Of a DNA stretch of 64,000 nucleotides, positions 44,268 to 62,454 are shown in pieces (positions within the stretch are counted from its first letter, which is position 1; each line of letters opens with the position of its first letter). The stretch comes from Demequina sp. NBRC 110056 (GTDB lineage Bacteria; Actinomycetota; Actinomycetes; Actinomycetales; Demequinaceae): contig NZ_BBRM01000003.1 in NCBI RefSeq assembly GCF_002090155.1, positions 310,001-374,000 on the forward strand. Direction: 5' to 3'. The position numbers and the translations under genes are program-made. A model generated the notes under the pieces. That model was given only the letters and a program-made list of their open reading frames with translations, was not told where the DNA came from and ran no database searches.

Positions 44268-44960
44268 CTAGAACGCGTATCCGAACACTTCGATCTGTGG
44301 ATGTGCAACTGAGCGCACCCGTTCCACGCCCTCTGCGTCGTACATTTCCCGGTACCTGGCGGACGCAGGTCGAGTACTTGACTTCGCGTGCGGTAGAGCG
44401 GCGCCAGCGGGCAGTTTGAGGGACCGGAGTATTGAAGAATAGTCATCTGAGAGTTGCTCGAACCGCAGTACATGGTCCACAACCACGGAGTTATCGATCG
44501 AAATGATCTCCCAGTTTCTGGTCAAGAACTCAAGGTGTGGACTGCGCAGGTACTCGTCAAACGAGAGGGTGTCTGAATGCAGCCAGTAGTAATGGGAAAC
44601 GGCGGCGTCCCACGGGTTGCGTATTACTGCAAACTTGACGTAATCGGCAAAGCGCTCTGGACCAATTAGCTGTCGCACCTCGCAGGCCGACATGTGGTTG
44701 TACGCCTTTCTCCATCCACGCCCGAGGACAAAGCGCTTCCAGTCAGAACCGCTGAGCGTGCTTGCGCGAGTGACCGGGAATCGGAAGTTCTGCGCACCCA
44801 GACCAGACCGAGCGCGGCGGGCCTCTTCGTCTGCAGGCGGGTGCAATGGTGTCAGGATGTCTTCCCGCCCGCACACTCCGGACAACGCAATCTCAATGCT
44901 CGTTCCTGCCGTCTTGAGAGTCTTCAAGAAAACGAAACCGTGCTTGTGGGACGCGATCAC
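44268..44960 (-). CDS. Sulfotransferase, family 2 (carbohydrate type)
   Basis: 230 residues. HKHGFVFLKTLKTAGTSIEIAL is the 5'-phosphosulfate loop of the Sulfotransfer_2 group (HNK-1, chondroitin and heparan 2-O type), and FAVIRNPWDAAVSHYYW the 3'-phosphate site. HVLRFEQLSDDYSSILRSL fits the C-terminal helix. Cytoplasmic, without a signal peptide. It belongs to a different subfamily from the enzyme at 38959, so the polymer could be sulfated at two positions. The GTG at 44960 is chosen because the family begins just before the HKH loop. Confidence 0.82.
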   Translation of the reverse strand: MIASHKHGFVFLKTLKTAGTSIEIALSGVCGREDILTPLHPPADEEARRARSGLGAQNFRFPVTRASTLSGSDWKRFVLGRGWRKAYNHMSACEVRQLIGPERFADYVKFAVIRNPWDAAVSHYYWLHSDTLSFDEYLRSPHLEFLTRNWEIISIDNSVVVDHVLRFEQLSDDYSSILRSLKLPAGAALPHAKSSTRPASARYREMYDAEGVERVRSVAHPQIEVFGYAF

Positions 44961-45138
44961 GGTCTCAACTCTACTTGAGTGCAGCGGCCACGCCGGGCAC
45001 ATCGTAGCCAGACGACGTCTGTGCGCGCAGAGACAATACGCCGTGCACGCCCATGCCGTCGCTAGTCCATTGCAGCATGGTGCGCCGAGGACGTGCGACT
45101 CAGTTGTAGGTCGACACGGCCTTCAGCTGTATTGCTCA

Positions 45139-48316: not shown

Positions 48317-49257
48317 TGATTGTGCTCCTGCTCTGCTGTGGCTTCACGCTTCTCCTGCCATGTGAAGAGGCGAAAGCCCATCGATTGGCGCACCCAGGCC
48401 CAGGCGAGCGTGCCGCCGGCGGCGATGAACACGAGTGAGACCAGTACCCACGCGCCATCGACGCCGAGGAGGGCGAGGCCTGCGACGAAGAGGATGATCG
48501 CGAGCGCCCGGCGCACGAGCCCGCCGTTCATGCGAGAAGAGAGCTGTGCGCCGAGGTACGCGCCAGGCACCGAGCCCAGGATGATCGGGATGGTCACCGA
48601 CCAGTCGACATCGCCGAAGAAGAGGTGCGCGACGGCCGCGGCGACGACGAGCGGGACTGCCTGCACGAGGTCCGTGCCGACAAGCTGGTTGGCCTTCAGC
48701 ATCGGGTACAGCGCCATGAGGGCGATAATGATGAGCGAGCCGGAACCCACCGAGGTGAGGCCGACCATGAGGCCCCCGACCACGCCGACGATGATCGTCG
48801 GAACAGGCCGTGCGACGACGTCGGGCCGCTCCGTGGGCAGCGGCGCTGCGCGGCCGTCGCGTTGCATCGCGTGTTCCCGCAGCCGCAGGTATGCGCGCAC
48901 AAACAGTCCGAGCGAGGCGATGATGAGCACCACGCCGAGCGCGTGCTTGACGAAGGACTGCACCTCGGGCCCTGGGCCCATCCAGTGGGCGATGAGCACC
49001 CCACCGAAGGCCGCGGGGACGGAGCCGTAGACGAGCAGCCGTACGAGCTGCCAGTTCACGGTGCCGTTGCGCATATGCACCCACGAGCCCGCGGGCTTCA
49101 TTGCGGCCGATGCGACCACGTCGCTGGACACTGCTGTAAGGGGCGGGACGCCGAAGAAGAGCACCAGCGTGGGCGTCATGAGCGCGCCCCCGCCCATGCC
49201 GGTGAGGCCGACGACGACACCGATGCCGACGGCGGCGATCAGGAGCCCGACGTCCAT
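48313..49257 (-). CDS. TauE/SafE-family sulfite or sulfur-compound transporter
   Basis: 314 residues, about eight transmembrane helices with the family's paired glycine-rich repeats (GLTGMGGGALMTPTLVLFFG; GLTSVGSGSLIIIALMAL). Family members export sulfite or sulfoacetate or take up sulfate-related anions. Its place inside the cys operon, 51 bp after cysN and overlapping cysC, suggests anion traffic for PAPS synthesis, possibly sulfate import. The direction cannot be read from the sequence. Confidence 0.82.
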   Translation of the reverse strand: MDVGLLIAAVGIGVVVGLTGMGGGALMTPTLVLFFGVPPLTAVSSDVVASAAMKPAGSWVHMRNGTVNWQLVRLLVYGSVPAAFGGVLIAHWMGPGPEVQSFVKHALGVVLIIASLGLFVRAYLRLREHAMQRDGRAAPLPTERPDVVARPVPTIIVGVVGGLMVGLTSVGSGSLIIIALMALYPMLKANQLVGTDLVQAVPLVVAAAVAHLFFGDVDWSVTIPIILGSVPGAYLGAQLSSRMNGGLVRRALAIILFVAGLALLGVDGAWVLVSLVFIAAGGTLAWAWVRQSMGFRLFTWQEKREATAEQEHNQ

Positions 49258-49308
49258 GGCTAGACGCTACCTGTCACGCGCGCGTACAGGACGTCACCAG
49301 GGCCGGGC

Positions 49309-50556
49309 TCAGGAATCGCGGACAACTCCCGCGCCCACAGTGCGGTTGGTCGCCTCGTCGATCAGCACGAAGGAACCCGTCGTCCGGTTCTCGTCATAGT
49401 CGTCGAGCAGCAGCGGCGTGGTGACCCGCAGCTTGACGCGACCAATCGAGTTGAGGTTCAGCTGGTTGATCTCGCTGTCGCGGTGAAGCGTGTTCACGTT
49501 GAGCTCGTACGGGATCTCCTTGACCATCGCGCGCGCCATACGGCTGGTGTGGAAGATGCCGAGCTTGCGGCCCACCGTCAGCGCGTCCTGGTCCATCCAG
49601 CACACCATCGCCTCGACGTCCTGCGTGGGCGCCGGGTGGTTGCCAGGGCGGCACAGCATGTCGCCGCGGGAGATGTCGATCTCGTCCTCGAGGCGCACCG
49701 TCACCGACATGGGCGGGTAGGCCTCCTCGACGGGGCCGTTGGGGCCGTCGATCGCGGCGACCTTCGTGGTCAGACCCGAGTGAAGCGCCATGACCTGGTC
49801 GCCCACCTTGAGGATGCCCGAGGCGACCTGACCAGCGAAGCCACGGTAGTCGCGCGAGTCCGCCTGCTGGGGGCGGATCACGTACTGCACCGGGAAGCGC
49901 ACGTCCTGGAGGTTGCGGTCCGAGGCGATGTGCACGTGCTCCAGGTGGTGCAGCAGGCTGGTACCGCCGTACCAGGGCATATTGGCCGAGCGCTCGACGA
50001 CGTTGTCGCCCATGAGGGCGCTCACAGGGATCGCGGTGAGGTCCGGGATGTCGAGCTTCGAGGCGAAGTCAGAGAACTCCTGGTAGATCTCCTCGAACCG
50101 CGCCTCCGACCAGTCCACGAGGTCCATCTTGTTGACAGCGAGCACCACGTGGGGCACGCGTAGCAGCGAGGAGATCGTGGCGTGGCGGCGCGACTGCTCG
50201 GTGAGGCCCTTGCGGGCGTCGACCAGGATGACCGCGAGGTTTGCGGTCGATGCGCCGGTCACCATGTTGCGGGTGTACTGCTGGTGGCCCGGGGTGTCCG
50301 CGATGATGAATTTGCGGCGCGGGGTGGCGAAGTAGCGGTAGGCGACGTCGATGGTGATGCCCTGCTCGCGCTCGGCGCGCAGGCCGTCGGTGAGCAGCGA
50401 CAGGTCGGTGTAGTCGTTGCCGCGGGACTTCGAGGCGGCCTCGACCGACTCAAGCTGGTCCTCGAAGATGGACTTCGAGTCGAACAGCAGGCGGCCGATC
50501 AGCGTGGACTTTCCGTCGTCGACGGATCCAGCGGTGGCGAAGCGCAACAGGTCCAT
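49309..50556 (-). CDS. cysN: Sulfate adenylyltransferase subunit 1 (GTPase)
   Basis: 415 residues. EF-Tu-like GTPase that drives ATP sulfurylase: P-loop GSVDDGKSTLIGRLL, switch GITIDVAYRYF, DTPGHQQYTRNM and NKMDLVD are intact, followed by two beta-barrel domains. No APS kinase is fused; that activity is in the separate cysC gene. The start codon shares one base with the cysD stop (TAATG), so the subunits are made together. Confidence 0.95.
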   Translation of the reverse strand: MDLLRFATAGSVDDGKSTLIGRLLFDSKSIFEDQLESVEAASKSRGNDYTDLSLLTDGLRAEREQGITIDVAYRYFATPRRKFIIADTPGHQQYTRNMVTGASTANLAVILVDARKGLTEQSRRHATISSLLRVPHVVLAVNKMDLVDWSEARFEEIYQEFSDFASKLDIPDLTAIPVSALMGDNVVERSANMPWYGGTSLLHHLEHVHIASDRNLQDVRFPVQYVIRPQQADSRDYRGFAGQVASGILKVGDQVMALHSGLTTKVAAIDGPNGPVEEAYPPMSVTVRLEDEIDISRGDMLCRPGNHPAPTQDVEAMVCWMDQDALTVGRKLGIFHTSRMARAMVKEIPYELNVNTLHRDSEINQLNLNSIGRVKLRVTTPLLLDDYDENRTTGSFVLIDEATNRTVGAGVVRDS

Positions 50557-51464
50557 TAGAAGTACCCCTCCTTCTTCCGGTCCTCCATAGCTGCCTCGGA
50601 CACGCGGTCGTCGCCGCGGGTCGCCCCGCGCTCCGTCAGGCGCGTGGCGGCCGTCTCTTCGATGATCTTGTCGATGGTGTCAGCGTCGGATTCGACGGCG
50701 GCCGTCAGCGTGGCGTCACCGACGGTGCGGTAGCGCACCTTCTTGACCACGGTCTCGTCCGCGTCGCCGGGGACGGCGAACTCGTTCGCTGCCATCCACA
50801 TGCCGTCGCGCAGGAACACCTCGCGCTCGTGCGCGTAGTAGATGCTCGGCACTTCGATCTCGCGCGAGCGGATGTAGTCCCAGATGTCGAGCTCGGTCCA
50901 GTTGGACAGAGGGAAGACGCGGATGGACTCGCCAGAGTGGACCTTGCCGTTGTAGAGGTTCCAAAGTTCGGGACGCTGGTTGCGTGGGTCCCACTGACCG
51001 AAGTCGTCGCGGAAGGAGAAAACGCGCTCCTTGGCGCGAGCCTTCTCCTCGTCGCGGCGGGCGCCGCCCATGCACGCGTCGAACTTGTTGGACTCGATGG
51101 TCTCGAGAAGCACGGGCGTCTGGATTCGGTTGCGCGAGCCGTTGGGCTCCTCCTTGACGCGTCCGGCGTCGATGGCGTCTTGCACGGAGCCCACGATGAG
51201 GTTGAGTCCGTGCTCGGCCACGATGCGGTCGCGGTACTCGAGCACCTCGGGGAAGTTCTGGCCGGTGTCGATGTGGACGACGGGCATCGGCAGGCGCGCG
51301 GGTGCGAAGGCCTTGATCGCGAGGTGCAGCAGACAGATGGAGTCCTTACCGCCCGAGAAGAGCAGCGCGGGGCGCTCCATCTGGGCGACGACCTCGCGGA
51401 TGATGTGGATGCCCTCAGCCTCGAGGGCATCGAGCTGGCTCAGCGCGTGACTGGGCTGGGTCAT
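50556..51464 (-). CDS. cysD: Sulfate adenylyltransferase subunit 2
   Basis: 302 residues. ATP-pyrophosphatase fold with the PP-loop LLFSGGKDSICLLHLA, then HIDTGQNFPEVLEYRD, MGGARRDEEKARAKERVFSF and SNWTELDIWDYI, all diagnostic of CysD. With CysN it makes adenylyl sulfate from sulfate and ATP. The ATG at 51464 overlaps the TGA of cysQ (ATGA). The longer upstream open frame is rejected because the family begins near this Met. Confidence 0.95.
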   Translation of the reverse strand: MTQPSHALSQLDALEAEGIHIIREVVAQMERPALLFSGGKDSICLLHLAIKAFAPARLPMPVVHIDTGQNFPEVLEYRDRIVAEHGLNLIVGSVQDAIDAGRVKEEPNGSRNRIQTPVLLETIESNKFDACMGGARRDEEKARAKERVFSFRDDFGQWDPRNQRPELWNLYNGKVHSGESIRVFPLSNWTELDIWDYIRSREIEVPSIYYAHEREVFLRDGMWMAANEFAVPGDADETVVKKVRYRTVGDATLTAAVESDADTIDKIIEETAATRLTERGATRGDDRVSEAAMEDRKKEGYF

Positions 51465-52225
51465 GAAGCGTCTCCGTGGTCGGCGGCCTGGGCGATCAAA
51501 TCGAGGATCCTCGATGCGAGCTCCGGACGGCACACCACCAGATCGGGTAGATAGGGGTCGGCGCCATTGTAGAGGAGTGGAGAGCCGTCGATGCGTGACG
51601 TGTGCAGGCCTGCGGCGCGAGCAACCGCGACAGGTGCGGCCGAGTCCCATTGGTACTGGCCTCCAGCGTGGACATAGGCGTCAACCTGGCCGCGGACGAC
51701 GGCCGCGATCTTGACGCCAGCAGATCCCATCGGGACGAGTTCTGCGTCGAGTCCGGCGCGCACTGGTTCGGTGATGGCGGGTGGGCGCGAGCGGCTCACC
51801 GCGAGTCGCACCTTCTCGGCGACCGATGCGGGGGCCGGGTCGACGGTATCGGTGTCGAGGACGAGATCCTCACCGGGAATGGCGACGGCGCCAGCCGCCA
51901 GTTCGCCCTCCTCCCACAGCGCGACATGCACGGCCCAGTCGGCTCGGCCCTCGGAGTACTCGCGGGTGCCATCGAGAGGGTCGATGATCCACACGCGGCT
52001 TGCCGTAAGGCGAACGTCGGTGTCCCGAGCCTCCTCGCTCAGAACGGCGTCATCGGGGAAGCGCTCGGCCAGTAGCGCCGCGATGCGCTCTTGCGCTGCT
52101 GCGTCGCCTCGATTGCCCCGTTCCTTGCCTTGCACTTCCTCTCCGAAGTCGGCGCGAATCTCCAGCAGTACCTCGCCGGCTTCGCGCGCGATCTCCGCCG
52201 CCGCGGCGGCATGGGTGGTGGTCAT
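51461..52225 (-). CDS. cysQ: 3'(2'),5'-bisphosphate nucleotidase
   Basis: 254 residues of the inositol-monophosphatase superfamily. Metal motif WIIDPLDGTREYSEGRADWAVHVAL and the C-terminal QWDSAAPVAVARAAGLH are present; an upstream Glu in LSEEARD is the third ligand. It hydrolyses PAP, the inhibitory by-product of sulfotransferases and PAPS reductase. It is the first gene of the cys operon and has AAGGAG upstream, with a divergent gene at 52303. Its inclusion fits heavy sulfotransferase use. Confidence 0.9.
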   Translation of the reverse strand: MTTTHAAAAAEIAREAGEVLLEIRADFGEEVQGKERGNRGDAAAQERIAALLAERFPDDAVLSEEARDTDVRLTASRVWIIDPLDGTREYSEGRADWAVHVALWEEGELAAGAVAIPGEDLVLDTDTVDPAPASVAEKVRLAVSRSRPPAITEPVRAGLDAELVPMGSAGVKIAAVVRGQVDAYVHAGGQYQWDSAAPVAVARAAGLHTSRIDGSPLLYNGADPYLPDLVVCRPELASRILDLIAQAADHGDAS

Positions 52226-52289
52226 GGCGAAGTGTCTCCTTCGGGATCAAGGGCCGCCCGGAGGCTATCAGCCTCAGGTTTCTCGTGGG

Positions 52290-52302
52290 TACCGTGAGCA
52301 TC
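52290..52302 (+). promoter_or_regulatory. -10 box and 7-nt spacer for a leaderless start
   Basis: TACCGT at 52290-52295 followed by 7 nt and the ATG at 52303. There is no ribosome binding site. The arrangement fits transcription starting at or next to the start codon, as known for many actinobacterial genes. Confidence 0.5.
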
Positions 52303-53265
52303 ATGAGCGCCGGACCTCGACTGCAACTCGTTGACGCCGTTGCGCTCGCGCACGCGATGACAGCGGCGACGGCCGCTCAAGCCGGCGTGAGGGCACTCGT
52401 TGTTAAGGGACTAGTGGCTTCCCATCACGGGATCAGGGAAGAACGAGTGAGCGCCGATGCCGACGTACTAGTTGAGCCTCGACGCTACGGGGAGTACCGG
52501 GCGGCACTCGAAGCGCTCGGCTGGCGGGAGCGACCCGAGCCGCAGACCTACGAAGCACTGCTCGACCATTCAGCAACCATGGTTCACGACCAGTGGCCAT
52601 GCGACATCGACGTGCACTGGACGTTTCCAGGGTTCCTGACCTCGCGCGAAGACTTGTTTGACGTGCTGTGGGCGCGCCGTATCGCCGTGACCTTTGCCGG
52701 TTCCAGGGCACAGGCTGCGGACCGCAGCACATCGATTCTGGTCGCGACGTTGCACGCGTTACGAACTCCCTCCCAGACCACGCGGCACGGGCGCGAGGTT
52801 CGGCATCTGGTTGAATCGGTCATTCCGGCACTCTCGTCGGTCGAACGGGAGGACCTGCTCGACTTGGCTCGTGATACGGGATGTATCGATACCGCTCGTC
52901 CCGTGCTGGAACGCCTCGCGATACCGATCCCCGCATCCACGCCAGCGGGTACGGATCCAGCACTCGACGCGTGGAGAGAACGCGTCGCCGGCCGAGGCGA
53001 CGTCGCGAACCAATGGCGCGTCCACGCTCGCTCTCTGCCCAGGAAAGAGCGGTCGCGACTGGCACTCAGAGTCCTGTGGCCGCCAGAGGACGAGCTTCGT
53101 CAGATGTACCCAGAAGTAGCGGGTACGCGACGAGCCCTTCTGAGCGCTCGTTTCGCGCGACTCGGCAGGGGATTGCGGCAGATGCCGGATGTACTCCGCG
53201 GCCGCCGCCTCGCTCGCCGCGGCATCACCGACGACTCCCTCCTCCGCGAAGGCGACGACAAGTGA
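52303..53265 (+). CDS. Nucleotidyltransferase-family protein (NTP_transf_5-like)
   Basis: 320 residues. ALVVKGLVASHHGIREERVSADADVLVEPRRY carries the Lys and the D-x-D metal-binding pair (SADADVLV) of minimal nucleotidyltransferases; CDIDVHWTFPG provides a further acidic site. This family regularly accompanies HprK-related kinases and PqqD-like proteins in polysaccharide or peptide-modification loci, as here. What it transfers is unknown. ATG 52303 is chosen because of the TACCGT box. The gene overlaps the PqqD-like gene by 4 bp. Confidence 0.7.
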   Translation: MSAGPRLQLVDAVALAHAMTAATAAQAGVRALVVKGLVASHHGIREERVSADADVLVEPRRYGEYRAALEALGWRERPEPQTYEALLDHSATMVHDQWPCDIDVHWTFPGFLTSREDLFDVLWARRIAVTFAGSRAQAADRSTSILVATLHALRTPSQTTRHGREVRHLVESVIPALSSVEREDLLDLARDTGCIDTARPVLERLAIPIPASTPAGTDPALDAWRERVAGRGDVANQWRVHARSLPRKERSRLALRVLWPPEDELRQMYPEVAGTRRALLSARFARLGRGLRQMPDVLRGRRLARRGITDDSLLREGDDK

Positions 53266-53588
53266 CCAACCCAGCGACCGCATCGGCCCTCCACCGGGCA
53301 CAGGGCCTCGCCCACGTCGACCATGACGACTACACCGTCGTCCTCAACCTCCCGCGCCTCCAGGAGCAGCAGAGCCCCTACATCTTCGACGGCACCTCGT
53401 TCGCGATCTGGAACCTCATCGACGGCACCCGTACTCAGGAGCAGATCGCCGCGGAACTCGCCGACACGTACGGCGCCCCGCGCGACCAAGTCGCGCCCGA
53501 CGTCGACGCCTTCATCGCCCAACTCCTTGACCTGGGCCTCGTCACCCACGACCCGCCGAGTGACGGTTCCGTCACCCCCGTGAAGTAG
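53262..53588 (+). CDS. PqqD-like peptide chaperone 1
   Basis: 108 residues. The PqqD fold is suggested by YIFDGTSFAIWNLIDGTRTQEQIAAELADTYGAP (given here in parts: LNLPRLQEQ, FAIWNLIDG, DVDAFIAQLLDLGLV). Such proteins bind peptides and present them to modifying enzymes. The partner here is probably the HPrK-like fusion two genes downstream. GTG start overlaps the nucleotidyltransferase stop. A second PqqD-like gene closes the cassette at 56564. Confidence 0.72.
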   Translation: MTNPATASALHRAQGLAHVDHDDYTVVLNLPRLQEQQSPYIFDGTSFAIWNLIDGTRTQEQIAAELADTYGAPRDQVAPDVDAFIAQLLDLGLVTHDPPSDGSVTPVK

Positions 53589-53624
53589 CCTGAACAACAG
53601 TTCCGGCACAGCGAGGGAGAGCGG

Positions 53625-55100
53625 ATGGAGCTGCAGGACTACGCGAAGGTGCTGCGCGCGCACTGGATCGCGATCGCCGCCTTCACGCTTGCTGGCGCCC
53701 TGCTCGCGTTCGGCTGGACGCTCACGCAGACCAAGGTCTACACCGCCAACGCCTCGGCGATCATCACCACCGGCGTGAGCGAGGACCTCGGCCAGGCACT
53801 TGTCGGAGACAACTACGCCAAGTCGCGCGTGAAGTCCTACGTCGACATCGCCGAGTCCCGCCGCGTCGCCGAGTACGCCATCGACACCCTCGGCCTCGAC
53901 ACGAGCCCACAGGCCCTCGTAGGCCGCGTGTCCGTGACCAACCCGCTCGACACCGCGGTGCTGCGAATCAGCGCCGACGCCGCCTCGCCCCAGGAGGCCA
54001 TGGACCTCGCCGAGGCGTGGATCGAGGGCATGGTCGTCGCCGTCCAGTTGCTCGAGAACAACGTCTCCACGGTCGAGGAGCTGCCCGCGACCGCGACGTC
54101 GGTGGTCGAGTTGCAGACGCTCGACTCGGCCGTCCTCCCCGGCGCCCCGTCGTATCCCAACACGCAGCTCTCGGTGGCGCTCGGCCTCCTCGTCGGTGCA
54201 GCGCTCGGCGTCGCCTACGCGCTCATCCGCGGCGCCGTCGACCGGCGCCTGCGCACCCCGGCGAACGTCGAGAAGGAGTTCGACCTGCCCGTCTTGGGCG
54301 CGATCCCCTTCGACAAGTCCATCGCAGCCAAGGGCGCGCTCGCGCCCAACCCCGAGTTCGCCACCGTCGAGTCCATCCGCGAGCTGCGCACCAACCTGCA
54401 GTTCATGGACGTCGACAACCCGCCGCGCCTCATCGTCATCACCTCGTCGCTGCCCGGCGACGGCAAGTCCACCGTGTCGATCAACCTCGCGCGCGCCATC
54501 GCGGACTCCGGCCAGGCCGTGGTCCTCGTCGACGCCGACCTGCGCCGCCCGCGCATCGCCCGTTACCTCGGCCTCGTCGAGGGCGCGGGCCTCACCGACG
54601 TCCTCGTCGGCCGCGCCGAGCTCGACGACGTCCTCCAAGACTTCGGCCCCGGCGGCAAGCTCAAGGTGCTCGGCGCCGGCTCGGTGCCGCCCAACCCATC
54701 CGAGCTCGTCGGCTCGGCGACCATGCGCAAGGTCCTCGACGACCTCGACCCCAACGCCATCGTCCTCATCGACAGCCCGCCGCTCATCCCCGTCACCGAC
54801 GCCGCGATCCTCACCGCGCGCACCGACGGCGCTCTCGTGGTCGTGCGTGCAGGCAAGACCACCATCGACCAGCTCGACCGCGCCCTCATGAGCCTCGACA
54901 AGGTCAAGGGCCGCGCCATGGGCGTCATCCTCGACGGTCTCGCGCCCAAGGGTCCCGACAGCCGTGGCTACGGCTACGGGTACGGGTACGAGGAGTCTTC
55001 CGTCGGCTCCCACAGCGCCGATGCGCCCGCCGGCCCCCGTCACGCAGGTGGCAGTCAGCGCCGGACTCGTCGCGCATCGGCGGCCTCGGCGGGGGAGTAG
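53625..55100 (+). CDS. Polysaccharide co-polymerase/BY-kinase fusion, copy 2
   Basis: 491 residues. Same architecture as the gene at 25875: starts MELQDY, Wzz-type outer domain between two membrane helices (about 15-35 and 185-205), then the kinase. Here all motifs are canonical: Walker A PGDGKSTVS, Walker A' VVLVDADLRRPR, Walker B AIVLIDSPP. The Tyr-rich tail is YGYGYGYEE followed by about 35 Ser/Ala/Arg-rich residues. It should be an active tyrosine autokinase controlling chain length. Ribosome binding site GAGGGAGAG before the ATG. It lies 3 bp before the pseudo-phosphatase fusion. Confidence 0.9.
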   Translation: MELQDYAKVLRAHWIAIAAFTLAGALLAFGWTLTQTKVYTANASAIITTGVSEDLGQALVGDNYAKSRVKSYVDIAESRRVAEYAIDTLGLDTSPQALVGRVSVTNPLDTAVLRISADAASPQEAMDLAEAWIEGMVVAVQLLENNVSTVEELPATATSVVELQTLDSAVLPGAPSYPNTQLSVALGLLVGAALGVAYALIRGAVDRRLRTPANVEKEFDLPVLGAIPFDKSIAAKGALAPNPEFATVESIRELRTNLQFMDVDNPPRLIVITSSLPGDGKSTVSINLARAIADSGQAVVLVDADLRRPRIARYLGLVEGAGLTDVLVGRAELDDVLQDFGPGGKLKVLGAGSVPPNPSELVGSATMRKVLDDLDPNAIVLIDSPPLIPVTDAAILTARTDGALVVVRAGKTTIDQLDRALMSLDKVKGRAMGVILDGLAPKGPDSRGYGYGYGYEESSVGSHSADAPAGPRHAGGSQRRTRRASAASAGE

Positions 55101-55103
55101 CCC

Positions 55104-56567
55104 ATGGGGGTCGAGACCGCGGACACCTTCCGGGTGCTCATCGTCGACCTCGAGGGCATCGGCCGCGCGCCTGCGGGCGAGCGGTTCCTGCGGCACGAGC
55201 TCGAGGCACGGGGCATCGGCCCCGACGTCATCTCCGTCCGATCCGCCGGCCTCACGGCGCAGGACGGCGGCCCGCTGCACCCGCGCACCGTCAAGGCCAT
55301 CGAGGACCGCGGCGCGGACGCCTCCGGCTACACCCAGCGTCAGCTCAACCGCGACTGGGTCGACGAGGCGGACATGATCATCTGCGGCAACGGCGCAGAC
55401 CGCGATGAGGTCGCGGCTCGCTTCCCCGCAGCGGCGAAGAAGACCTTCTCGCTGTCGGAGATCTTCTACCTCTACGAGATGGTCGTCGCGATCGCGCCGC
55501 TGCGCGAGCACCCCGCGCTGCTGATGTCGCGCGTCGCCGGCGCGGACCTCACCGACGACTTCGACCTGCCACCCATGTCGCACGACCCCGTCGAGCTCGA
55601 GGCGCGCATCGAGGCGCTCGCGGACCAGATCCAGCGCGCGGCGTTCTGGGTCGCGACCATCTGGCAGTCGATGCTCCCCGAGGACCCGTCGTCGCGCCCC
55701 GCGATGCAGCCGGGCGACCACCAGGTCGACCTGGTCGCGTTCGGCGTGACCGTGCGCGTGGTGTGCACCGGTGACGCGCCCTACACGCTCGCCACGCTCG
55801 TCGATCGGACGTGGCTGTGGCTCAAGGCACCCGCGCCGCACGAGGGCGAGCCGGACGTGACGATCTCGATCGCGGTCTACGCCGACGAGGACGCCCGTCT
55901 CCAGGCGCGCGCCGACGGGTGGATGACCTACGAGACGCTGAGCCAGGCGATGCACTTCCTGTCCTCGACCGTCACGGTCCGCGCGATCGACCGGCGCGCC
56001 GGCCAACTGGTGATGCTGCACGCCGCGGGTCTCGCGACGCCGGACGGCAAGGTCGTCGGCTTCGTGGCGCCTTCGGGGACGGGCAAGACGACCATCTCGC
56101 GCACCCTGGGCAAGCACTTCGGGTACGTCACCGACGAGACGCTGGCCATCGAGTTCGACGGCACGGTCCTGAGGTACCCGAAGCCGCTGTCGGTCATCAC
56201 CGACCGCGACGCGCGCCTCAAGGAGCAGATGCCCGCACACGACCTCGACCTGATGCGGGCGCCCTCGTCGCTGTCGCTCGCGCGCGTCGTGATCCTCAAC
56301 CGCGACCCCGACGCGGGCGACGAGCCCGTCGTCGAGCAGATGCCGCTGCTGCACGGCCTCGCCGTGATCGCGGAGCAGACCAGCTACATCACGCATCTGC
56401 CTGCGAAGCTCCATACCCTCGCGGACACGGTCGAGTCCGTCGGCGGCGTGTGGCGCGTGACGTATCGCGAGGCCGCGCACCTCGTGGCTCTGGTGCCCGC
56501 GCTCGCGGACGGCACGGTAGACCTCGCGGAGGCCGAGGTGCCCGCGGCGGTGGGAGGTGTGGCGTGA
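55104..56567 (+). CDS. Pseudo-tyrosine-phosphatase fused to an HPr-kinase-like domain
   Basis: 487 residues. Residues 8-185 follow the low-molecular-weight phosphatase pattern (RVLIVDLEGIGRAPAGERFL; ISVRSAGL; WVDEADMIICG; LSEIFYL), but the catalytic Cys is Asp15 while Arg21 is kept, so it cannot use the usual cysteine chemistry. Residues about 205-487 are HPrK-like: GFVAPSGTGKTTISRTL (P-loop at 322-330), GYVTDETLAIEFDG and a beta-rich surround. HprK-related kinases with PqqD-like and nucleotidyltransferase partners are a known but biochemically undefined association. ATG with GGGGGAG upstream; coupled to the kinase before it and overlapping the PqqD-like gene after it. Confidence 0.78.
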   Translation: MGVETADTFRVLIVDLEGIGRAPAGERFLRHELEARGIGPDVISVRSAGLTAQDGGPLHPRTVKAIEDRGADASGYTQRQLNRDWVDEADMIICGNGADRDEVAARFPAAAKKTFSLSEIFYLYEMVVAIAPLREHPALLMSRVAGADLTDDFDLPPMSHDPVELEARIEALADQIQRAAFWVATIWQSMLPEDPSSRPAMQPGDHQVDLVAFGVTVRVVCTGDAPYTLATLVDRTWLWLKAPAPHEGEPDVTISIAVYADEDARLQARADGWMTYETLSQAMHFLSSTVTVRAIDRRAGQLVMLHAAGLATPDGKVVGFVAPSGTGKTTISRTLGKHFGYVTDETLAIEFDGTVLRYPKPLSVITDRDARLKEQMPAHDLDLMRAPSSLSLARVVILNRDPDAGDEPVVEQMPLLHGLAVIAEQTSYITHLPAKLHTLADTVESVGGVWRVTYREAAHLVALVPALADGTVDLAEAEVPAAVGGVA

Positions 56568-56869
56568 GCCTTCCCGACTTCCCTTCGCCGGTGGAGCTCG
56601 ACGACGGCGCGCGGCTGCGCTCAGAAGTCGATGACTTCATCGAACGCGATGGGCAGCTCCTCGTGCTTAAGGGCAACGACCTGACGCTGCTGTCGCACGT
56701 CGCGTCCGCAGCGGTGCTCGCGACCATGGACGAGGAGCAGACCGTCGTCTCGCTGGCCGAGATCCTGATCGACCTGTACGGCGTTCCCGAGGGCGTCGAC
56801 CCGGCGATCGCAATCCGTCAGATCGTCGCCGTGCTCGTCGAGCGCGGGATCGTCCACGCCCTGCCTTGA
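56564..56869 (+). CDS. PqqD-like peptide chaperone 2
   Basis: 101 residues. LLVLKGNDLTLLSHVASAAVLATM and VSLAEILIDLYGVPEG, then QIVAVLVERGIVHAL follow the three-helix PqqD plan. GTG start overlaps the previous TGA. It ends 33 bp before the conserved 51-bp element that precedes the Tat-signal gene series. Confidence 0.65.
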   Translation: MSLPDFPSPVELDDGARLRSEVDDFIERDGQLLVLKGNDLTLLSHVASAAVLATMDEEQTVVSLAEILIDLYGVPEGVDPAIAIRQIVAVLVERGIVHALP

Positions 56870-56901
56870 CCTCGCGCGCACTCTTCCCGATATTAGGAAT
56901 G

Positions 56902-56952
56902 GTGACATGCGTCATAGATCACACTCCGGCGTGTCTCATCTCTTAACATGAC
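56902..56952 (+). promoter_or_regulatory. Conserved 51-bp upstream element, copy 1
   Basis: Starts with an inverted repeat TGAC-ATGC-GTCA and ends CTTAACATGAC. About 75% identical to the element at 58204-58254, with the same length and almost the same distance to a start codon (93 nt here, 96 nt there). Probably a promoter with an operator for the Tat-signal gene at 57045. Confidence 0.6.
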
Positions 56953-57044
56953 GGAACGCCGTGGCTGGTGTGAGGTGTGGAATACCTCGCTCCGGTGCCT
57001 TTCGAGGTTCGGGAGGCTGGCGCTTGAGACTGAGGAACTTCACG

Positions 57045-57623
57045 ATGGCACTCGCTGACCCGTCGGTCGCGCCTGCGCGCTCCGATAGCCCCGTCGACCG
57101 CCGCCGCATCCTGACGGGTGCGGCGTGGGCGACCCCCGCAATCGTGATCGGCATGGCCGCGCCTGCGGCCGCGTCGTCCGGCGGATCGAGCACACCTCAG
57201 CAGCCGGGTGCGCTCGCTCTCGTGAGCGCGAGCGCCGAGCGAGTGATCCTGTTCGGATTCAACGCGTATACGGCTCGAGCGACCGCCGTCTTCGCGGGTG
57301 CGGCTGGCTCGGCGTCGGTGACCGGCGTCCGGATGCGCATCTCGTTCGATTCAGGTCGAGCTGGCGCAACCGCGCCGACGATCGCCTCCGGCTCGACGGG
57401 GTGGTCGTTCAGCGCGACCACTGTCACTGGGAGCCGTCGCCACTACGACTTCGTGTACTCGTCTCCGGTCAGCGCGCCTAGCGGCGCGACGACGGCGCTC
57501 GAGATCAGCTTTGTTGGAACGTGGCGCTTTGGCGCTTCAGAGCGGGTCGACTTCCAGGCGTTCGGCACCAGCCAGAACGTCAACGTCCAGTCCAGCGTTT
57601 TCTCGGACCACGACCTGGACTGA
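57045..57623 (+). CDS. Tat-signal small secreted protein A
   Basis: 192 residues. RRR at 19-21 in VDRRRILTGAAWATPAIVIG, then APAAASS: a twin-arginine-type signal with a fixed GAAWATPAI core. The mature part is about 150 residues, Ser/Thr/Gly/Ala-rich and beta-strand-like (ARATAVFAGAAGSASVTGVR), with no cysteine. No family is recognised. First of six tandem paralogues, transcribed with B. Ribosome binding site GAGGAAC before ATG. Confidence 0.75.
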   Translation: MALADPSVAPARSDSPVDRRRILTGAAWATPAIVIGMAAPAAASSGGSSTPQQPGALALVSASAERVILFGFNAYTARATAVFAGAAGSASVTGVRMRISFDSGRAGATAPTIASGSTGWSFSATTVTGSRRHYDFVYSSPVSAPSGATTALEISFVGTWRFGASERVDFQAFGTSQNVNVQSSVFSDHDLD

Positions 57624-57674
57624 TCAAGAACTATGCGGGCGCGGTCTCTCGCGCCCACTAAGGAGAGTCGAGCA

Positions 57675-58157
57675 GTGACAACGAACGACAACCGCCACCA
57701 CGCGAAGTCCGGTATCTCGCGGCGTCGCGTACTCGTAGGCACCGCTTGGGCGACCCCGGCAGTGATGATCGGTGCAGCGGCACCACAAGCCGCCGCGTCG
57801 GGTGGTTCAGCGAGCCCGCTCGCCGGCGCGACCATCACGCAAGTCGCGAGCAACGGCACTCATGACGCACTACGGGTGACCGTTGCGCTGCCTCAGGGCG
57901 CTTCACTCACCAATGTCTCAGTCGTTGTGCTGTGGGTGCCCGACGGGAACAAGCCCCACGTGAAGATTCCCGCCTGGAACTCCCCGGAGAAGTCCAGCGG
58001 CAACGACACATTCACACGCGCGTCCGTGGGCGCCGGCGACACTTTCGACATCGAGTTCTTCAAGGCCGCGGACAACTCGCAGTACACCGTGACGATCTCT
58101 GGGACCACGCAGGGCGGGGCCTCGGCCTCGCGCTCGTTCACTGGGACGCTTCTGTAG
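57675..58157 (+). CDS. Tat-signal small secreted protein B
   Basis: 160 residues. Signal ISRRRVLVGTAWATPAVMIG followed by AAAPQAAAS. The mature part is a short Ig-like beta domain (DALRVTVALPQGASLTNVSV; DTFDIEFFKAADNSQYTVTI) ending SRSFTGTLL. GTG start with AAGGAGAG; 51 bp after gene A, probably one operon. Its C-terminus resembles the orphan tail at 58949-59068. Confidence 0.72.
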   Translation: MTTNDNRHHAKSGISRRRVLVGTAWATPAVMIGAAAPQAAASGGSASPLAGATITQVASNGTHDALRVTVALPQGASLTNVSVVVLWVPDGNKPHVKIPAWNSPEKSSGNDTFTRASVGAGDTFDIEFFKAADNSQYTVTISGTTQGGASASRSFTGTLL

Positions 58158-58203
58158 CGGGCACCGGGCGCATGCTTCGCGTTCGCTCTCAATACTGGTA
58201 ACT

Positions 58204-58254
58204 GTGACCTGCGTCATAGTGCGCAGATCGGCGTGTCTCATCACTTAACATGAC
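58204..58254 (+). promoter_or_regulatory. Conserved 51-bp upstream element, copy 2
   Basis: Same plan as 56902-56952: inverted repeat TGAC-CTGC-GTCA, then CGGCGTGTCTCATC and CTTAACATGAC. It precedes gene C by 96 nt. The conservation exceeds that of the sequences on either side, which indicates function. Confidence 0.6.
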
Positions 58255-58349
58255 TGAGCGCCACGAGCGGCTGACGGCCTAGCGAGCCTCGCCCTCGAAG
58301 TCCGGGAGAACGGACCCGGACGCGCACCGTTGAGGAGGAATTGAGCACG

Positions 58350-58949
58350 ATGGCACCCGCTGACATCTCGAATGCGCCCGCGCGCGCACATGCTAACCAC
58401 GGCATCTCGCGACGCCGAGTACTGCACGGAGCCGCTTGGATCGCACCGGCAATCACCGTCGCAACGGCGATTCCAGCGGCCGCGTCCTCGCCCGAAACCT
58501 CCGCGCCTCAGCGCTCAGTCGATGTCCAGGGCAACTGGCTAGTTTTCAACGGTGTCGAGCTCTCCAACGTCAATTCTGGAGTTGGTCGCGCTCAGTACGT
58601 GTTCGGGATGGGTTTCCGCGTTTGGAACGATCAGGCCGCGTTCAATGGGTCGGGTGTGCAGGCTTGGCAGGTCTCGACGGCTCAGGAGTTCCAGACGTGG
58701 CCGATCACTTACAAGCTCGAGATTCGCAACGCGGCAGGGACTGTGGTGCACACGACATCGGAAACGCGAGATCTCGCTACCCCCAACGGTGACGGCGGAT
58801 GGAACTCCGGGCACGTTGACCTCAACCTTGGCGCTTCCGGCACGTACACCATGAAGGTGTCGATCTCGAGCTCCAAGATCGCCTTGGTTAACGGCAAGAC
58901 CTTTATGGCGCTCCCGTGGTCGCAAGAGGTCACCAAGAGCATCACTTGA
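58350..58949 (+). CDS. Tat-signal small secreted protein C
   Basis: 199 residues. Signal ISRRRVLHGAAWIAPAITVA then PAAASS. The mature domain is beta-rich (VQGNWLVFNGVELSNVNSG; YKLEIRNAAGTVVHTTSETR; GTYTMKVSISSSKIALVNG) and lacks cysteine. ATG 58350 (GAGGAGG upstream) is preferred to TTG 58341 because it aligns with gene A. A remnant of another paralogue follows directly after its stop. Confidence 0.72.
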   Translation: MAPADISNAPARAHANHGISRRRVLHGAAWIAPAITVATAIPAAASSPETSAPQRSVDVQGNWLVFNGVELSNVNSGVGRAQYVFGMGFRVWNDQAAFNGSGVQAWQVSTAQEFQTWPITYKLEIRNAAGTVVHTTSETRDLATPNGDGGWNSGHVDLNLGASGTYTMKVSISSSKIALVNGKTFMALPWSQEVTKSIT

Positions 58950-59068
58950 TCGGGGCGCAGTTCACGGTTGAGTTCCATCAGGCACAGCCCAACAAGGCGT
59001 ACTCGGTCACGCTGAGCGGAACTGTTGGAGGCGTGCCTGCCGAAATCAGCGGCTCGGGAACCACCTGA
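58949..59068 (+). pseudogene. Orphan C-terminal tail of a further Tat-signal paralogue
   Basis: In a frame shifted by one base relative to gene C, a 39-codon stretch reads IGAQFTVEFHQAQPNKAYSV, continuing TLSGTVGG to a TGA. It aligns with the end of protein B (FDIEFFKAADNSQYTVTISG). No start or signal precedes it, so it looks like the end of a lost gene, or a frameshifted extension of C. Confidence 0.5.
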
Positions 59069-59281
59069 TCGCTCGCTGCCGATGCGGGAGGCCGCGCTTC
59101 GGGGTGCTTCGCCGTAGAACTGAGGCGCTCGTTCGAACGGGGCGGGCGCGAGATTCCTCACACACGGCATGACCTGGGCAACGAACCGAGCACTCGAATC
59201 GTTCTGTCCTATGAGAAGGACGAATTGACCACGCGAGGCGGGCGACTGCGCGCCCGCGGTGCATGAGCTGAGGTGCTCCCC

Positions 59282-59845
59282 ATGTCTGACCCCCGCGCTG
59301 CGGCGCGCCCGAATCCGAATGGTGCCGTCGACCGGCGCCGTGTGTTGAAGGGCGCCGTGTGGACGGCACCCGCGGTCGTCGTGGCGAGTGCTCTACCGGC
59401 AGCGGCGAGCTCGGTCACGGCGCCCGTCGTGACGGTCGCTGGCAACGGAAGCGCCAACTCGAACCCCGAGTACGCGTTCGTGAGCGCCACTGCTGACTTC
59501 TCGACCGTCTCGGCAACGGGCTCCTATCTGGACACGGGCTTCACCGTGACGCTCACCTCTCCTCGGGCGAACGCGACGCTTCAGACCTACGAGTACGACT
59601 CGAGGTACTTCTCCGTGAGCCCGGCTCAACTTCCGGGCAACCAGACGCCGAGCGTGATCTTCACCTACGTGGGTCCGCGCCTGACGGCGCCATCGGCCGC
59701 GCAATTCACCTTCTCCGCGGGGTGGAACCAGGGTGTGCCGCAGAGCCCGGTGAGCGACCGCGTCATCGTTGCGACACTCGTCGGGCAGACGGGCGCGGGG
59801 CGCCTTGAGGTCAGCACGAACATCCCTGTGCCTAAGTCGTCGTAG
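59282..59845 (+). CDS. Tat-signal small secreted protein D
   Basis: 187 residues. Signal VDRRRVLKGAVWTAPAVVVA then LPAAASS. The mature part is a beta-rich domain of about 145 residues (VTVAGNGSANSNPEYAFVSA; GFTVTLTSPRANATLQTYEY), cysteine-free. ATG 59282 is the best-aligned start; the gap to gene C holds the orphan tail and a GCCGATGCG motif at 59078. Function unknown. Confidence 0.7.
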   Translation: MSDPRAAARPNPNGAVDRRRVLKGAVWTAPAVVVASALPAAASSVTAPVVTVAGNGSANSNPEYAFVSATADFSTVSATGSYLDTGFTVTLTSPRANATLQTYEYDSRYFSVSPAQLPGNQTPSVIFTYVGPRLTAPSAAQFTFSAGWNQGVPQSPVSDRVIVATLVGQTGAGRLEVSTNIPVPKSS

Positions 59846-59939
59846 CCACAGCCCGCGACCGAAGTCGCGCAGCGACAGTCGTTGACGCCCAGCCCAACCG
59901 GACATACCGTGACATAACACCTAGTGCGCGGGAGGTCCG

Positions 59940-60431
59940 GTGGACGGTCAGGGGTTTCACTCAGGCATCTCTCGCCGGCGCCTGATCGTGGGAGCAGCGT
60001 GGACGGCCCCGGTCGTCGTGATCGCGACGAGCGTTCCAGCTGCCGCGGCCTCCATCCTGGTACCGGGCTCCGGCATCAACGTCGACTACAGCAACGCGCA
60101 GAGCTTCACCAATGGTCAGCTCCAGGTAGACGTCGACGTCACGTTCGACCCGCCGGACGAGTGGCCCGACGACCTCGTGCTCGCCGTGGTGTGCACCATC
60201 ACTATCGTCGGGCCCGCGCCGAGTACTGCCAGTCAGTCGGTGTACCCGAGCGGGACGTTCTCCGAGGCCAATCACATCGGCCAGTTCGAGCATGTCTTCG
60301 CAGGGCTGGCGACCGGGTCGTATGACGTGACCTGGAGCATCTCCGGCCAGGGGACGTCCTCCAGCACCGGCGACACCTACATCATCAGCCCGCCGCGTGG
60401 AGGCAACTTCTCGGACGTCTCGGTCGCGTAG
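59940..60431 (+). CDS. Tat-signal small secreted protein E
   Basis: 163 residues. Signal ISRRRLIVGAAWTAPVVVIA then SVPAAAAS. The mature domain resembles the DUF11/Ig group of short beta proteins (NGQLQVDVDVTFDPP; GSYDVTWSISGQGTSSSTG). Contains one Cys. GTG start with GGGAGGT upstream. Monocistronic or cotranscribed with D; a separate promoter could lie in 59846-59935. Confidence 0.7.
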   Translation: MDGQGFHSGISRRRLIVGAAWTAPVVVIATSVPAAAASILVPGSGINVDYSNAQSFTNGQLQVDVDVTFDPPDEWPDDLVLAVVCTITIVGPAPSTASQSVYPSGTFSEANHIGQFEHVFAGLATGSYDVTWSISGQGTSSSTGDTYIISPPRGGNFSDVSVA

Positions 60432-60515
60432 GCCCTGGTTGTAGCGCCCGACGGCGAGACCGCCCGCGAGCGGCGCAACGCGGGCAAGTTCATCGGAAAG
60501 TCGCATTCTCGACCA

Positions 60516-60544
60516 TTGACGCAATCTGGGTGCTCCTCTAGCGT
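60516..60544 (+). promoter_or_regulatory. Sigma-70-type promoter for gene F
   Basis: TTGACG at 60516-60521 and TAGCGT at 60539-60544 with a 17-bp spacer, 40 bp before the ATG at 60584. This is the clearest housekeeping promoter in the window. Confidence 0.65.
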
Positions 60545-60583
60545 GGCGCTCAGGGGCAGTTGGGGTTATTGCGGGGGGTGCGC

Positions 60584-61129
60584 ATGGACCGTTCTTTCTT
60601 GGTACCTGGGGTGTCGCGGAGGCGCGTCATGACGGGCGCGGCATGGGCCGCTCCCGCGATAGTCATCGCGAGCGCACTGCCCGCGGCAGCGGCGTCGACG
60701 GACACGCCCACGGTGTCGTTCTTGATCAGCCCGGTCACCGACTCAGGGGAGCCCGGGATCTTCCCGATCACCTTCACCGTCGCGGTCTCCGGTCCCACCG
60801 GCGCCTTCTTGAAGTCCGGGGCGACCATCGAGTTCTCGATCAGTCGCCTCGACGGTTCGGCCGAGGAGGTGCCCGCCACGGGAGTCACCTTCATGGGCTG
60901 GGACGGCGGCGGCTTGTGGTCCGGCCTGCCGCCATCCGATGCCAACAACTTCAACTACGCCAAGGTGACCTACAACGGTCCCGACGTCGTCACGCCTGGC
61001 GGCTTGATGCTCACCGTCGAGGTCGAAAACCTGCAGAACGGCGACCTGATCGCCGGGACGCTCGAGGGCGAATCCGGCGGAGGCGACATCTACGAGACCG
61101 ACCTGCAGGCGGCGACAGACGTTCCCTAG
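60584..61129 (+). CDS. Tat-signal small secreted protein F
   Basis: 181 residues. Signal VSRRRVMTGAAWAAPAIVIA then LPAAAAS. The mature part is beta-rich with DTPTVSFLISPVTDSGEPG and GLMLTVEVENLQNGDLIAG; cysteine-free. The ribosome binding site is a G-run before ATG. It converges on metX with 9 bp between stops. Last of the six paralogues. Confidence 0.72.
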   Translation: MDRSFLVPGVSRRRVMTGAAWAAPAIVIASALPAAAASTDTPTVSFLISPVTDSGEPGIFPITFTVAVSGPTGAFLKSGATIEFSISRLDGSAEEVPATGVTFMGWDGGGLWSGLPPSDANNFNYAKVTYNGPDVVTPGGLMLTVEVENLQNGDLIAGTLEGESGGGDIYETDLQAATDVP

Positions 61130-61138
61130 CCGACGCCG

Positions 61139-62335
61139 CTACAGCGAGCGCTCAAACTCCGCCATGAACGCGTTGAGCTGACCCGACTCCACGAGGAAGC
61201 CGTCGTGGCCCACGGGGGAGTGCACCACCTTGACGCCGTTCGACCCTGACAGCGCCGCATCCAGGCGCTGCGAGTTCTTGAGCGGGTACAGCCGGTCGGA
61301 GTCGACCGCCACGACGAGCGCGGCGTCCGTGTAGCGGGCGAGCGCCGTCTCGACTCCGCCGCGGTCGCGGCCCACGTCGTGCGACTGAATGGCCTGTGCG
61401 AGACGTACGTATGTGTTGGCGTCAAAGCGTCGCGCGAGCTTGCGCGCGTGGTGCTGGAGGTACGACTGGATGGCGAAGAGCCCGCCCTTGCCCAGCGGGT
61501 CGGTCTCGCCCTGGTACGACCGCCCGAAGCGGTCGGCGAGCTCGCCCTCGGAACGGTACGTCGTGTGCGCGATCATGCGCGCGATGCCCAGGCCCGAGTG
61601 GGGTCCGTCGCCGTCAGCCGCTCCGTAGTAGTCGCCGCCGCGAAACTTGGGGTCCGCCGCGATGGCCGCGAGCTGCGTCGTCGACCATGCGATCTGGTCT
61701 GCCGTGACGGCCGCTGTCGATCCGACGGGGGCGATCGCGCCCACGCGCCCTGGTGCCATGACGGTCCACTCGATGGCCCGCATGCCGCCCATGGACGGTC
61801 CGGCGATGAGCCTCCAGCGGTCGATGCCGAGCGCATCGGCGAGCTTGATCTCTGCGGCGACCATGTCGCGCATCGTCACGTACGGGAAGCGCGAGCCCCA
61901 CGGCTCGCCATCCTCGGGGTGCGGCGACGCCGGGCCTGTCGTGCCCTGGCAGCCGCCCACGACGTTCGCCGAGACGATGAAGTGGCGCTCGGGGTCGATG
62001 GGCTTGCCGGGGCCCACCATCGCGTTCCACCAGCCGCCTGTGTGGTGACCAGGCTCAGCCGGGCCCCACACGTGCATGTCTCCGGTGAGCGCGTGCGCGA
62101 TGTACACCGCGTTGTCCTTGGCGGCGTTGAGCTCGCCCCACGTCTCGTACGCGAGTGTCACGTCCGGCAGCGTGCCGAGCGGATCTGCCTCGAGCTCTAG
62201 GTCGCCGATGGGCACGAAGAGACGGCGTCCCGGGTGGTCGCCTTCCCGCCAGGCGGCCGATGCGGGGATCGGGGCGCCCGCGCCCGGCCCCTCGTCAGCG
62301 GCCCAGGCGTCGGTCTCGATGCCGTCGTCATCCAT
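61139..62335 (-). CDS. metX: Homoserine O-acetyltransferase (or succinyltransferase)
   Basis: 398 residues of the alpha/beta-hydrolase fold. It acylates homoserine in methionine synthesis. The nucleophile elbow is AGPSMGGMRAIEW (Ser). The acid is in VAVDSDRLYP and the base in SPVGHDGFLVESGQ. NVVGGCQGTTGPASPHP and SFDANTY-like RRFDANTYVRL are family hallmarks. About 45 N-terminal residues are extra. The ATG at 62335 lies in a divergent promoter region with the NlpC/P60 gene. Acetyl- versus succinyl-CoA specificity is not decided here. Confidence 0.93.
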   Translation of the reverse strand: MDDDGIETDAWAADEGPGAGAPIPASAAWREGDHPGRRLFVPIGDLELEADPLGTLPDVTLAYETWGELNAAKDNAVYIAHALTGDMHVWGPAEPGHHTGGWWNAMVGPGKPIDPERHFIVSANVVGGCQGTTGPASPHPEDGEPWGSRFPYVTMRDMVAAEIKLADALGIDRWRLIAGPSMGGMRAIEWTVMAPGRVGAIAPVGSTAAVTADQIAWSTTQLAAIAADPKFRGGDYYGAADGDGPHSGLGIARMIAHTTYRSEGELADRFGRSYQGETDPLGKGGLFAIQSYLQHHARKLARRFDANTYVRLAQAIQSHDVGRDRGGVETALARYTDAALVVAVDSDRLYPLKNSQRLDAALSGSNGVKVVHSPVGHDGFLVESGQLNAFMAEFERSL

Positions 62336-62430
62336 GCCGCCACGATAGGGCACGGCGTGGCTTGTCCGGTTTCCCACCTGGGGGTAGCCATCGCGGTGGT
62401 TTGTGTTTACTATCTGACAGGTGAGTCGCA

Positions 62431-62454
62431 TGTGACACATGTGACAAGAGTGAC
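62431..62454 (+). repeat. Triple 9-bp-period TGTGAC direct repeat, MtrA-box-like
   Basis: TGTGAC at 62431, TGTGAC at 62440 and AGTGAC at 62449, exactly 9 bp apart, ending 23 bp before the NlpC/P60 start. On the other strand this is GTCACT-GTCACA-GTCACA with 3-bp spacers. The mycobacterial regulator MtrA is known to bind tandem GTCACA-type 9-mers, including at the ripA promoter. The same arrangement occurs at 11772-11795. Confidence 0.6.

Follow-up and report, generated by a model that had tools for sequence, protein, structure and literature searches.

Twin-arginine signals with a W-x-x-P core in Demequina as candidate leaders for a PqqD-like and HprK-like kinase system

Described leader-guided systems and the Demequina locus

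Modification guided by a RiPP recognition element (RRE) is known for small peptides with dedicated leaders. The present analysis concerns a locus of Demequina sp. NBRC 110056 in which such a leader may be embedded in the export signal of whole secreted proteins. Within a stretch of 64,000 nucleotides of contig NZ_BBRM01000003.1 (hereafter, the window), six tandem genes on the plus strand at 57045-61129 encode proteins of 160-199 residues (P1-P6) with twin-arginine (Tat) signals. They follow a cassette that encodes two PqqD-like proteins and an HprK-like kinase.

A close counterpart is the system of linear polyphosphorylated peptides (LPP), as presented in passages of Popov et al. (2026; PMC13381572). 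Both systems combine a leader of the form [Y/W]xxPx[hydrophobic] with a PqqD-like RRE and an NTP transferase, together with a kinase that is HprK-like in LPP and appears HprK-related by profile here. A polysaccharide-locus setting, a conserved N-terminus with variable C-termini, and a Ser 17-18 residues past the aromatic residue are also common to the two. According to these passages, RREs bind [Y/W]xxPx[L/V/I/F/A] leaders (WxxP being bound by PbaB1), Trp versus Tyr sets specificity, and the HprK-like kinase places several phosphates on Ser3 of the LPP core. By our own count on the consensus printed there, YxxPxVLxHQxIxFETxxS, a Ser lies at Y+18. In contrast to LPP, the leader here is a Tat signal, kinase and PqqD-like domain often form one fusion protein, and substrates reach several hundred residues and are often scattered across the genome. 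LPP is called restricted to Bacillota in the same passages, whereas the present system occurs in Actinomycetes. Because no MsbA-like exporter or SipW-like leader peptidase was found among the genes read at 52285-62440, we regard this locus as working like an LPP cluster and not as being one.

Lasso peptides of the paeninodin and pseudomycoidin type provide a second comparison. The relevant portions of PMC9266682 and PMC7533575 describe an RRE, an HprK-like Ser kinase, and, for paeninodin, a WxxP leader. They also link PsmN, an NTP transferase-like protein annotated as a nucleotidyltransferase, to the hexose seen on phospho-Ser, although that portion of PMC9266682 leaves room for a host enzyme. 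The acceptor Ser of those lasso peptides is C-terminal, and their macrolactam synthetase and B2 peptidase have no counterpart among the genes read at 52285-62440. A different parallel is PEP-CTERM/EpsH, for which sections of Haft et al. (2006; PMC1569441) report a many-to-one relation between a short tag and a partner gene, its discovery by phylogenetic profiling, and a link to exopolysaccharide. That tag is C-terminal and its partner is a membrane protein proposed to be a transpeptidase, whereas the tag considered here is N-terminal and of Tat type, and the partner is a predicted cytoplasmic kinase. Searches of the open-access PMC literature showed, among the papers listed, none that connects RREs or HprK-like kinases with Tat signals; in PMC11508158, "RiPP recognition element" and "twin-arginine" both appear, in unrelated places.

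We consider it probable that the Tat signal doubles as an RRE leader and that the kinase phosphorylates an N-terminal Ser before export. Each signal would thus carry two codes. The RRR motif, the hydrophobic stretch, and A-x-A would form the twin-arginine export signal, and W-x-x-P-x-[I/V/L] inside it would serve as the leader on which a PqqD-like RRE docks. Either as part of the kinase polypeptide or as a protein encoded alongside it, this RRE would hold the signal in the cytoplasm. The HprK-like kinase would thereby be offered, for phosphorylation, the Ser 17 residues past the Trp (W+17), located where the mature protein starts. In Demequina, the NTP_transf_5 protein may next add a further group such as a sugar, a step offered because PsmN is tied to hexose on phospho-Ser in the part of PMC9266682 cited above. 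The protein would then pass to the Tat route for cleavage and export; in Demequina its destination would perhaps be an exopolysaccharide layer.

A broader form of this proposal is slightly more likely than not. It describes a many-to-one modification of the Actinomycetes secretome, in which one PqqD-HprK-like kinase would phosphorylate, ahead of Tat export, the N-terminal Ser of full-length secreted proteins that are scattered and otherwise unrelated; the phosphate might be a handle for glycan linkage. If true, RRE logic extends to whole secreted proteins, and proteins otherwise lacking an assigned function gain a named partner and acceptor residue. The arrangement would also represent a Gram-positive, N-terminal counterpart to PEP-CTERM-type sorting and would bear on why these proteins use Tat, as modification would precede export.

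The signal core and the serine register

All six open reading frames of the predicted tandem set are present. Their likely start codons, read from ribosome-binding sites, are ATG at 57045, GTG at 57675, ATG at 58350, ATG at 59282, GTG at 59940, and ATG at 60584. Each protein displays the features of a Tat signal (twin Arg, hydrophobic stretch, and A-x-A), and TatC is encoded in the genome (E 8e-66). The 28-residue signals share 54-71% pairwise identity (mean 64%), with R R R, G, W, P, P, and A A invariant. Anchored on the Trp, all six place the first Arg at W-9, Pro at W+3, Ile or Val at W+5, a second Pro at W+12, and Ser at W+17. The original prediction is amended on two points: six residues and not four separate I/V from the second Pro, and its "V" is I or V. 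In 6/6 signals the core fits [Y/W]xxPx[L/V/I/F/A]; at the sequence level, W-x-x-P-x-[I/V/L] is a match to the known binding motif of PqqD-like RREs.

Searched against the 2.94 Mb genome, a profile of the six signals returned 11 places with E <= 10. Eight of them reach E <= 4e-12 and the best of the others has E 0.62, which places the set beyond chance. Six of the eight lie in the cluster, the seventh (P7) lies near window position 64170, about 170 bases past the window end, and the eighth belongs to a protein of 434 residues on another contig, C6. P1-P6 are absent among the TIGR01409 matches of the genome at E <= 10, and named-family searches with the six proteins gave none above cut-off. Both a further Tat-like protein, encoded elsewhere in the same genome, and several ordinary Tat-type signals of other kinase loci are without W-x-x-P, in line with the earlier claim that conservation of Trp and Pro exceeds normal Tat needs.

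The register was followed over 112 distinct W-x-x-P signals, 67 from Demequina and 45 from other genera. Candidates were filtered beforehand on W..P, hydrophobicity, and small-x-small, so that the W and P frequencies in this set hold by construction. Position W+5 is I/L/V in 67/67 Demequina signals and I/L/V/A/F in 43/45 of the others. Ser occupies W+17 in 99/112 signals (59/67 in Demequina and 40/45 in other genera), compared with Ser at +1/+2 in 5/47 other export-like N-termini of the same loci, a rough control that includes some membrane helices, and 4/62 in a rougher one. A scan blind to W and P found 87 RR-plus-hydrophobic segments in 21 Demequina loci, 60 of them with W..P, and 110 in 40 other kinase loci, 12 of them with W..P; by eye, the segments without W..P are mostly membrane helices, together with the several ordinary Tat-type signals. 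Two variant signals (L175:5933-6847 and L197:10100-10993) carry three extra residues between Arg-Arg and Trp and keep Ser at W+17.

The conserved Ser and the Tat context bear on an improbable alternative in which docking is RRE-guided and the outcome is not phosphorylation. The PqqD-like domain would then act as a chaperone in Tat proof-reading, and ATP would be used for release, or another group added, by the kinase-like P-loop domain. Tat usually has folded cargo and signal-binding chaperones, which fits this alternative. Chaperones of the TorD/DmsD type are dedicated cytoplasmic proteins, each reading a single class of Tat signals; their fold is unrelated to the system considered here, and they have no attached kinase. 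Kinase scores, where shown, also fall below the cut-offs of named families. Yet a pure chaperone gives no role to the Ser at W+17, which is so frequent and close to the LPP acceptor register, and the Walker A and D-E residues of the kinase domain are invariant in 25 fusions.

Proposed kinase partner and co-occurrence across genomes

Signal and kinase were each searched across genomes, using a profile of 56 Demequina signals (E <= 1e-5) and an HprK-like domain profile of 16 rows, 11 of them from Demequina (model A5, E <= 1e-15). In the order, the signal matched in 54/297 genomes and 20/94 genera, and the kinase in 57/297 genomes. Counted as both, signal only, kinase only, and neither, the distribution was 51/3/6/237 (n=297) and, leaving Demequina aside, 40/2/6/226 (n=274). 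The class gave 10/1/3/232 (n=246), one other genus, tentatively Microbacterium, 55/3/2/99 (n=159), and Demequina relatives 17/1/0/18 (n=36). The association holds inside two genera where both states occur. Restricting the other genus to the 143 genomes with completeness of 90% or more and contamination of 5% or less left 52 with the signal, 54 with the kinase, and none with the signal alone; completeness is 72-83% in its three signal-only assemblies. In one of the kinase-only genomes, G515, a signal missed by the profile, with Arg-Arg at W-12 and Ser at W+17, lies next to the kinase.

Substrates are often unlinked to the kinase. No signal lies within about 10 kb in 28/40 kinase loci, and 12/40 have one, a few loci being cut by contig ends; in one genome (G401), 12 signals are spread over four contigs and the kinase sits on one. 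These patterns bear on the view that the signals are plain Tat signals with no partner, their likeness owed to recent tandem duplication or to membrane constraints. The tandem paralogues, a duplicated upstream region, and a gene remnant agree with it. Unlinked genes of other genera nevertheless carry the same core, genomes where no kinase was found are nearly free of it, and co-occurrence largely refutes this view, which we judge very unlikely. That the signal core has a specific partner, as originally predicted, is well supported: the core corresponds to an RRE-binding motif and the signals track the HprK-like/PqqD-like kinase across genomes. The same prediction allowed for a processing enzyme, and here the evidence departs from it, as the partner resembles a system for docking and modification more closely.

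Kinase architecture was read in 45 loci outside Demequina, five first met through signals and 40 drawn from kinase searches (60 matches were listed, the remainder being mostly weaker). With a PqqD profile built here, a PqqD-like domain was found on the kinase's own frame in 31/45 and adjacent in 12/45, hence in 43/45; none was shown in two. An NTP transferase was found in 18/45 of these loci. Across 25 kinase-PqqD fusions, the SGxGK, DE, and KPxS motifs are invariant and resemble an active site with Walker A and D-E residues. TIGR04352 (HprK-related kinase A) matches 23/25 fusions, more than any other NCBIfam family, so that by profile the kinase appears HprK-related. The best 60 rows of a PDB profile search with the kinase hold mainly ABC and other P-loop proteins.

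PqqD-A, one of the two PqqD-like proteins of the window, resembles solved RREs of lasso and LPP systems at the profile level (5v1u, E 4.5e-4; 9x90, 5.3e-4; 9x8z, 4.8e-3; 6jx3, weak), and PqqD itself matched too. On our own alignment, the PbaB1 pocket positions I48, L65, Y69, F83, L87, and L92 have the same or a similar residue in most PqqD-A rows. F83 is kept in 15/16 rows, and the Q79 position is Asp in 10/16, as in LppB D70. As a separate observation, a gene reading by eye as type I signal peptidase directly adjoins the HprK-like kinase in four loci (L176, L178, L186, and L204) and lies about 4 kb away in L189; the four adjoining genes may recall the leader peptidase of LPP clusters.

Among the 36 same-genus relatives, 18 carry the signal. 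In 16/18 a single 20-kb stretch holds it together with the autokinase, kinase fusion, and PqqD-B genes, and 15 of those 16 have PqqD-A and the NTP_transf_5 gene there as well. The two others are G022, in which the kinase is missing, and G019. In G019, the signal sits among genes that look by eye like glycosyltransferases, beside a transposase (L061:9684-10427) similar to one in the window, and its two kinase matches cover the kinase part only. Absence of the core from close orthologues, named at the outset as a refuting case, was not seen, as 4/4 Demequina activiva paralogues retain it. Identity between the window and D. activiva falls from 92% for MetX and 80.5% for the autokinase to 55% and 29% for the mature parts of P2 and P3.

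The clustering in these relatives also fits sorting into an exopolysaccharide matrix without modification. The true partner would then be polysaccharide machinery, such as the tyrosine autokinase (BY-kinase), NTP_transf_5, or a glycan enzyme, and the HprK-like kinase would merely travel in the cassette. Besides those 16 relatives, the position of the window cassette at the end of a polysaccharide locus and a BY-kinase in 21/45 other kinase loci agree with this idea. We hold it unlikely, as no BY-kinase was found nearby in 24/45 kinase loci, 20 of them in signal-bearing genomes, and the core fits an RRE motif, RREs being elements that act on peptides.

Motif, register, domain fusion, and co-occurrence all point toward phosphorylation guided by the Tat signal, short of biochemical proof. 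Several points weigh against that reading, beginning with its purely genomic basis. All 16 rows of kinase model A5 come from signal-bearing genomes, and the co-occurrence counts treat genomes that are not independent as separate cases. A narrow six-row model (A2) gave no signal in 22 other-genus genomes at E <= 1e-5. A relaxed kinase search in seven signal-only genomes returned short, weak matches, mostly ending at the P-loop, plus one C-terminal fragment, which came from G683. Therefore G022 (a Demequina relative), G108, G245, and G436, all with completeness of 90% or more, stand as exceptions, with signals and no kinase even in that search. In P7, W+17 is Asn and a Ser stands at W+18. LPP precursors are far shorter than many of the substrates elsewhere, and the exporter and leader peptidase of LPP clusters were missing from the genes read around the signals. 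The one TIGR04352 score shown is 24.5 bits against a cut-off of 200, and Hpr_kinase of Pfam does not match the kinase. Both PqqD-B and the domain fused to the kinase match PqqD weakly and, on our own alignment, lack the pocket Phe, and a structure model of PqqD-B was discarded at a mean pLDDT of 51. Moreover, an RRE binds an extended strand, yet the hydrophobic region of a Tat signal must also function at the membrane.

Cassette, polysaccharide locus, and mature parts

Directly upstream of P1-P6, the genes run in the order NTP_transf_5, PqqD-A, Wzc-type autokinase, LMWP-like/HprK-like fusion, and PqqD-B (Table 1); the gene 3' of the cluster reads as MetX. In Demequina, 17 such fusions were found, counting that of the window, and 11 were aligned. 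The catalytic Cys position of their LMWP-like domain is Asp (9), Gly (1), or Ser (1), and the domain is likely a pseudophosphatase. A role as counter-acting phosphatase was rejected, as the Cys is replaced in 11/11.

Table 1. Positions of features in the window
Feature	Position	Strand	Evidence
NTP_transf_5 protein	52285..53265	+	PF14907, E 8e-11
PqqD-A, PqqD family protein (RRE), 108 aa	53262..53588	+	PF05402, E 4e-15
Wzc-type chain-length/tyrosine autokinase (BY-kinase)	53625..55100	+	family search
HprK-like kinase fused to LMWP-like domain without catalytic Cys	55104..56567	+	family search, alignment
PqqD-B, PqqD-like (RRE-like), 101 aa	56564..56869	+	PF05402 below cut-off; best PDB match 9x90_B, E 0.03; profile match to PqqD-A, probability 94.7
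Upstream repeat, copy before P1	56885..56960	+	78% identical to 58187-58262
P1, Tat-signal protein, 192 aa	57045..57623	+	open reading frame, signal alignment, genome profile match
P1 signal core, first Arg to Ser (W+17)	57099..57179	+
P2, Tat-signal protein, 160 aa	57675..58157	+	open reading frame, signal alignment, genome profile match; mature part predicted 8-stranded beta sandwich
P2 signal core, first Arg to Ser (W+17)	57720..57800	+
Upstream repeat, copy before P3	58187..58262	+	78% identical to 56885-56960; 76 bases
P3, Tat-signal protein, 199 aa	58350..58949	+	open reading frame, signal alignment, genome profile match
P3 signal core, first Arg to Ser (W+17)	58410..58490	+
Remnant of P2-like seventh paralogue, C-terminal 39 codons	58949..59068	+	47% identity to end of P2 over 38 aa
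P4, Tat-signal protein, 187 aa	59282..59845	+	open reading frame, signal alignment, genome profile match
P4 signal core, first Arg to Ser (W+17)	59333..59413	+
P5, Tat-signal protein, 163 aa	59940..60431	+	open reading frame, signal alignment, genome profile match
P5 signal core, first Arg to Ser (W+17)	59973..60053	+
P6, Tat-signal protein, 181 aa	60584..61129	+	open reading frame, signal alignment, genome profile match
P6 signal core, first Arg to Ser (W+17)	60617..60697	+

The mature parts of P1-P6 have diverged strongly, as first noted, and with 18-29% identity (mean 24%, against 25% for shuffled controls) they are no more alike than shuffled sequences. They are also cysteine-poor, with a single Cys across all six. 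No C-terminal tag, PEP-CTERM-like or other, is shared by P1-P6, and C-terminal sorting was considered and dropped. The mature part of P2 was modeled as an 8-stranded beta sandwich (mean pLDDT 72). Foldseek and VIA searches with this model gave generic Ig/cohesin-like beta sandwiches (best Z 9.5) with many unrelated rows close, and therefore no function is drawn from the structure. The idea of a variable surface or matrix set fits the fast evolution, the one predicted beta sandwich, and the neighboring polysaccharide genes. The P2-like remnant after P3 had escaped the first description of the cluster.

The polysaccharide locus that ends in the signal cassette contains sulfotransferase-family genes. 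Two of these, together with genes read as CysC/CysN/CysD/CysQ-like without a family search, lie at window positions 38959-40077 (+), 44268-45002 (-), and 47201-52225 (-). Sulfotransferase and Cys-like sulfate-activation genes in or beside the locus suggest a sulfated exopolysaccharide. An integrase-type transposase, by reading, lies inside the locus at window positions 40332-41297 (+). Just past the window, after the P7 gene, L012:12538-16623 encodes a repeat protein of 1361 residues with C-terminal repeats that look SLH-like by eye.

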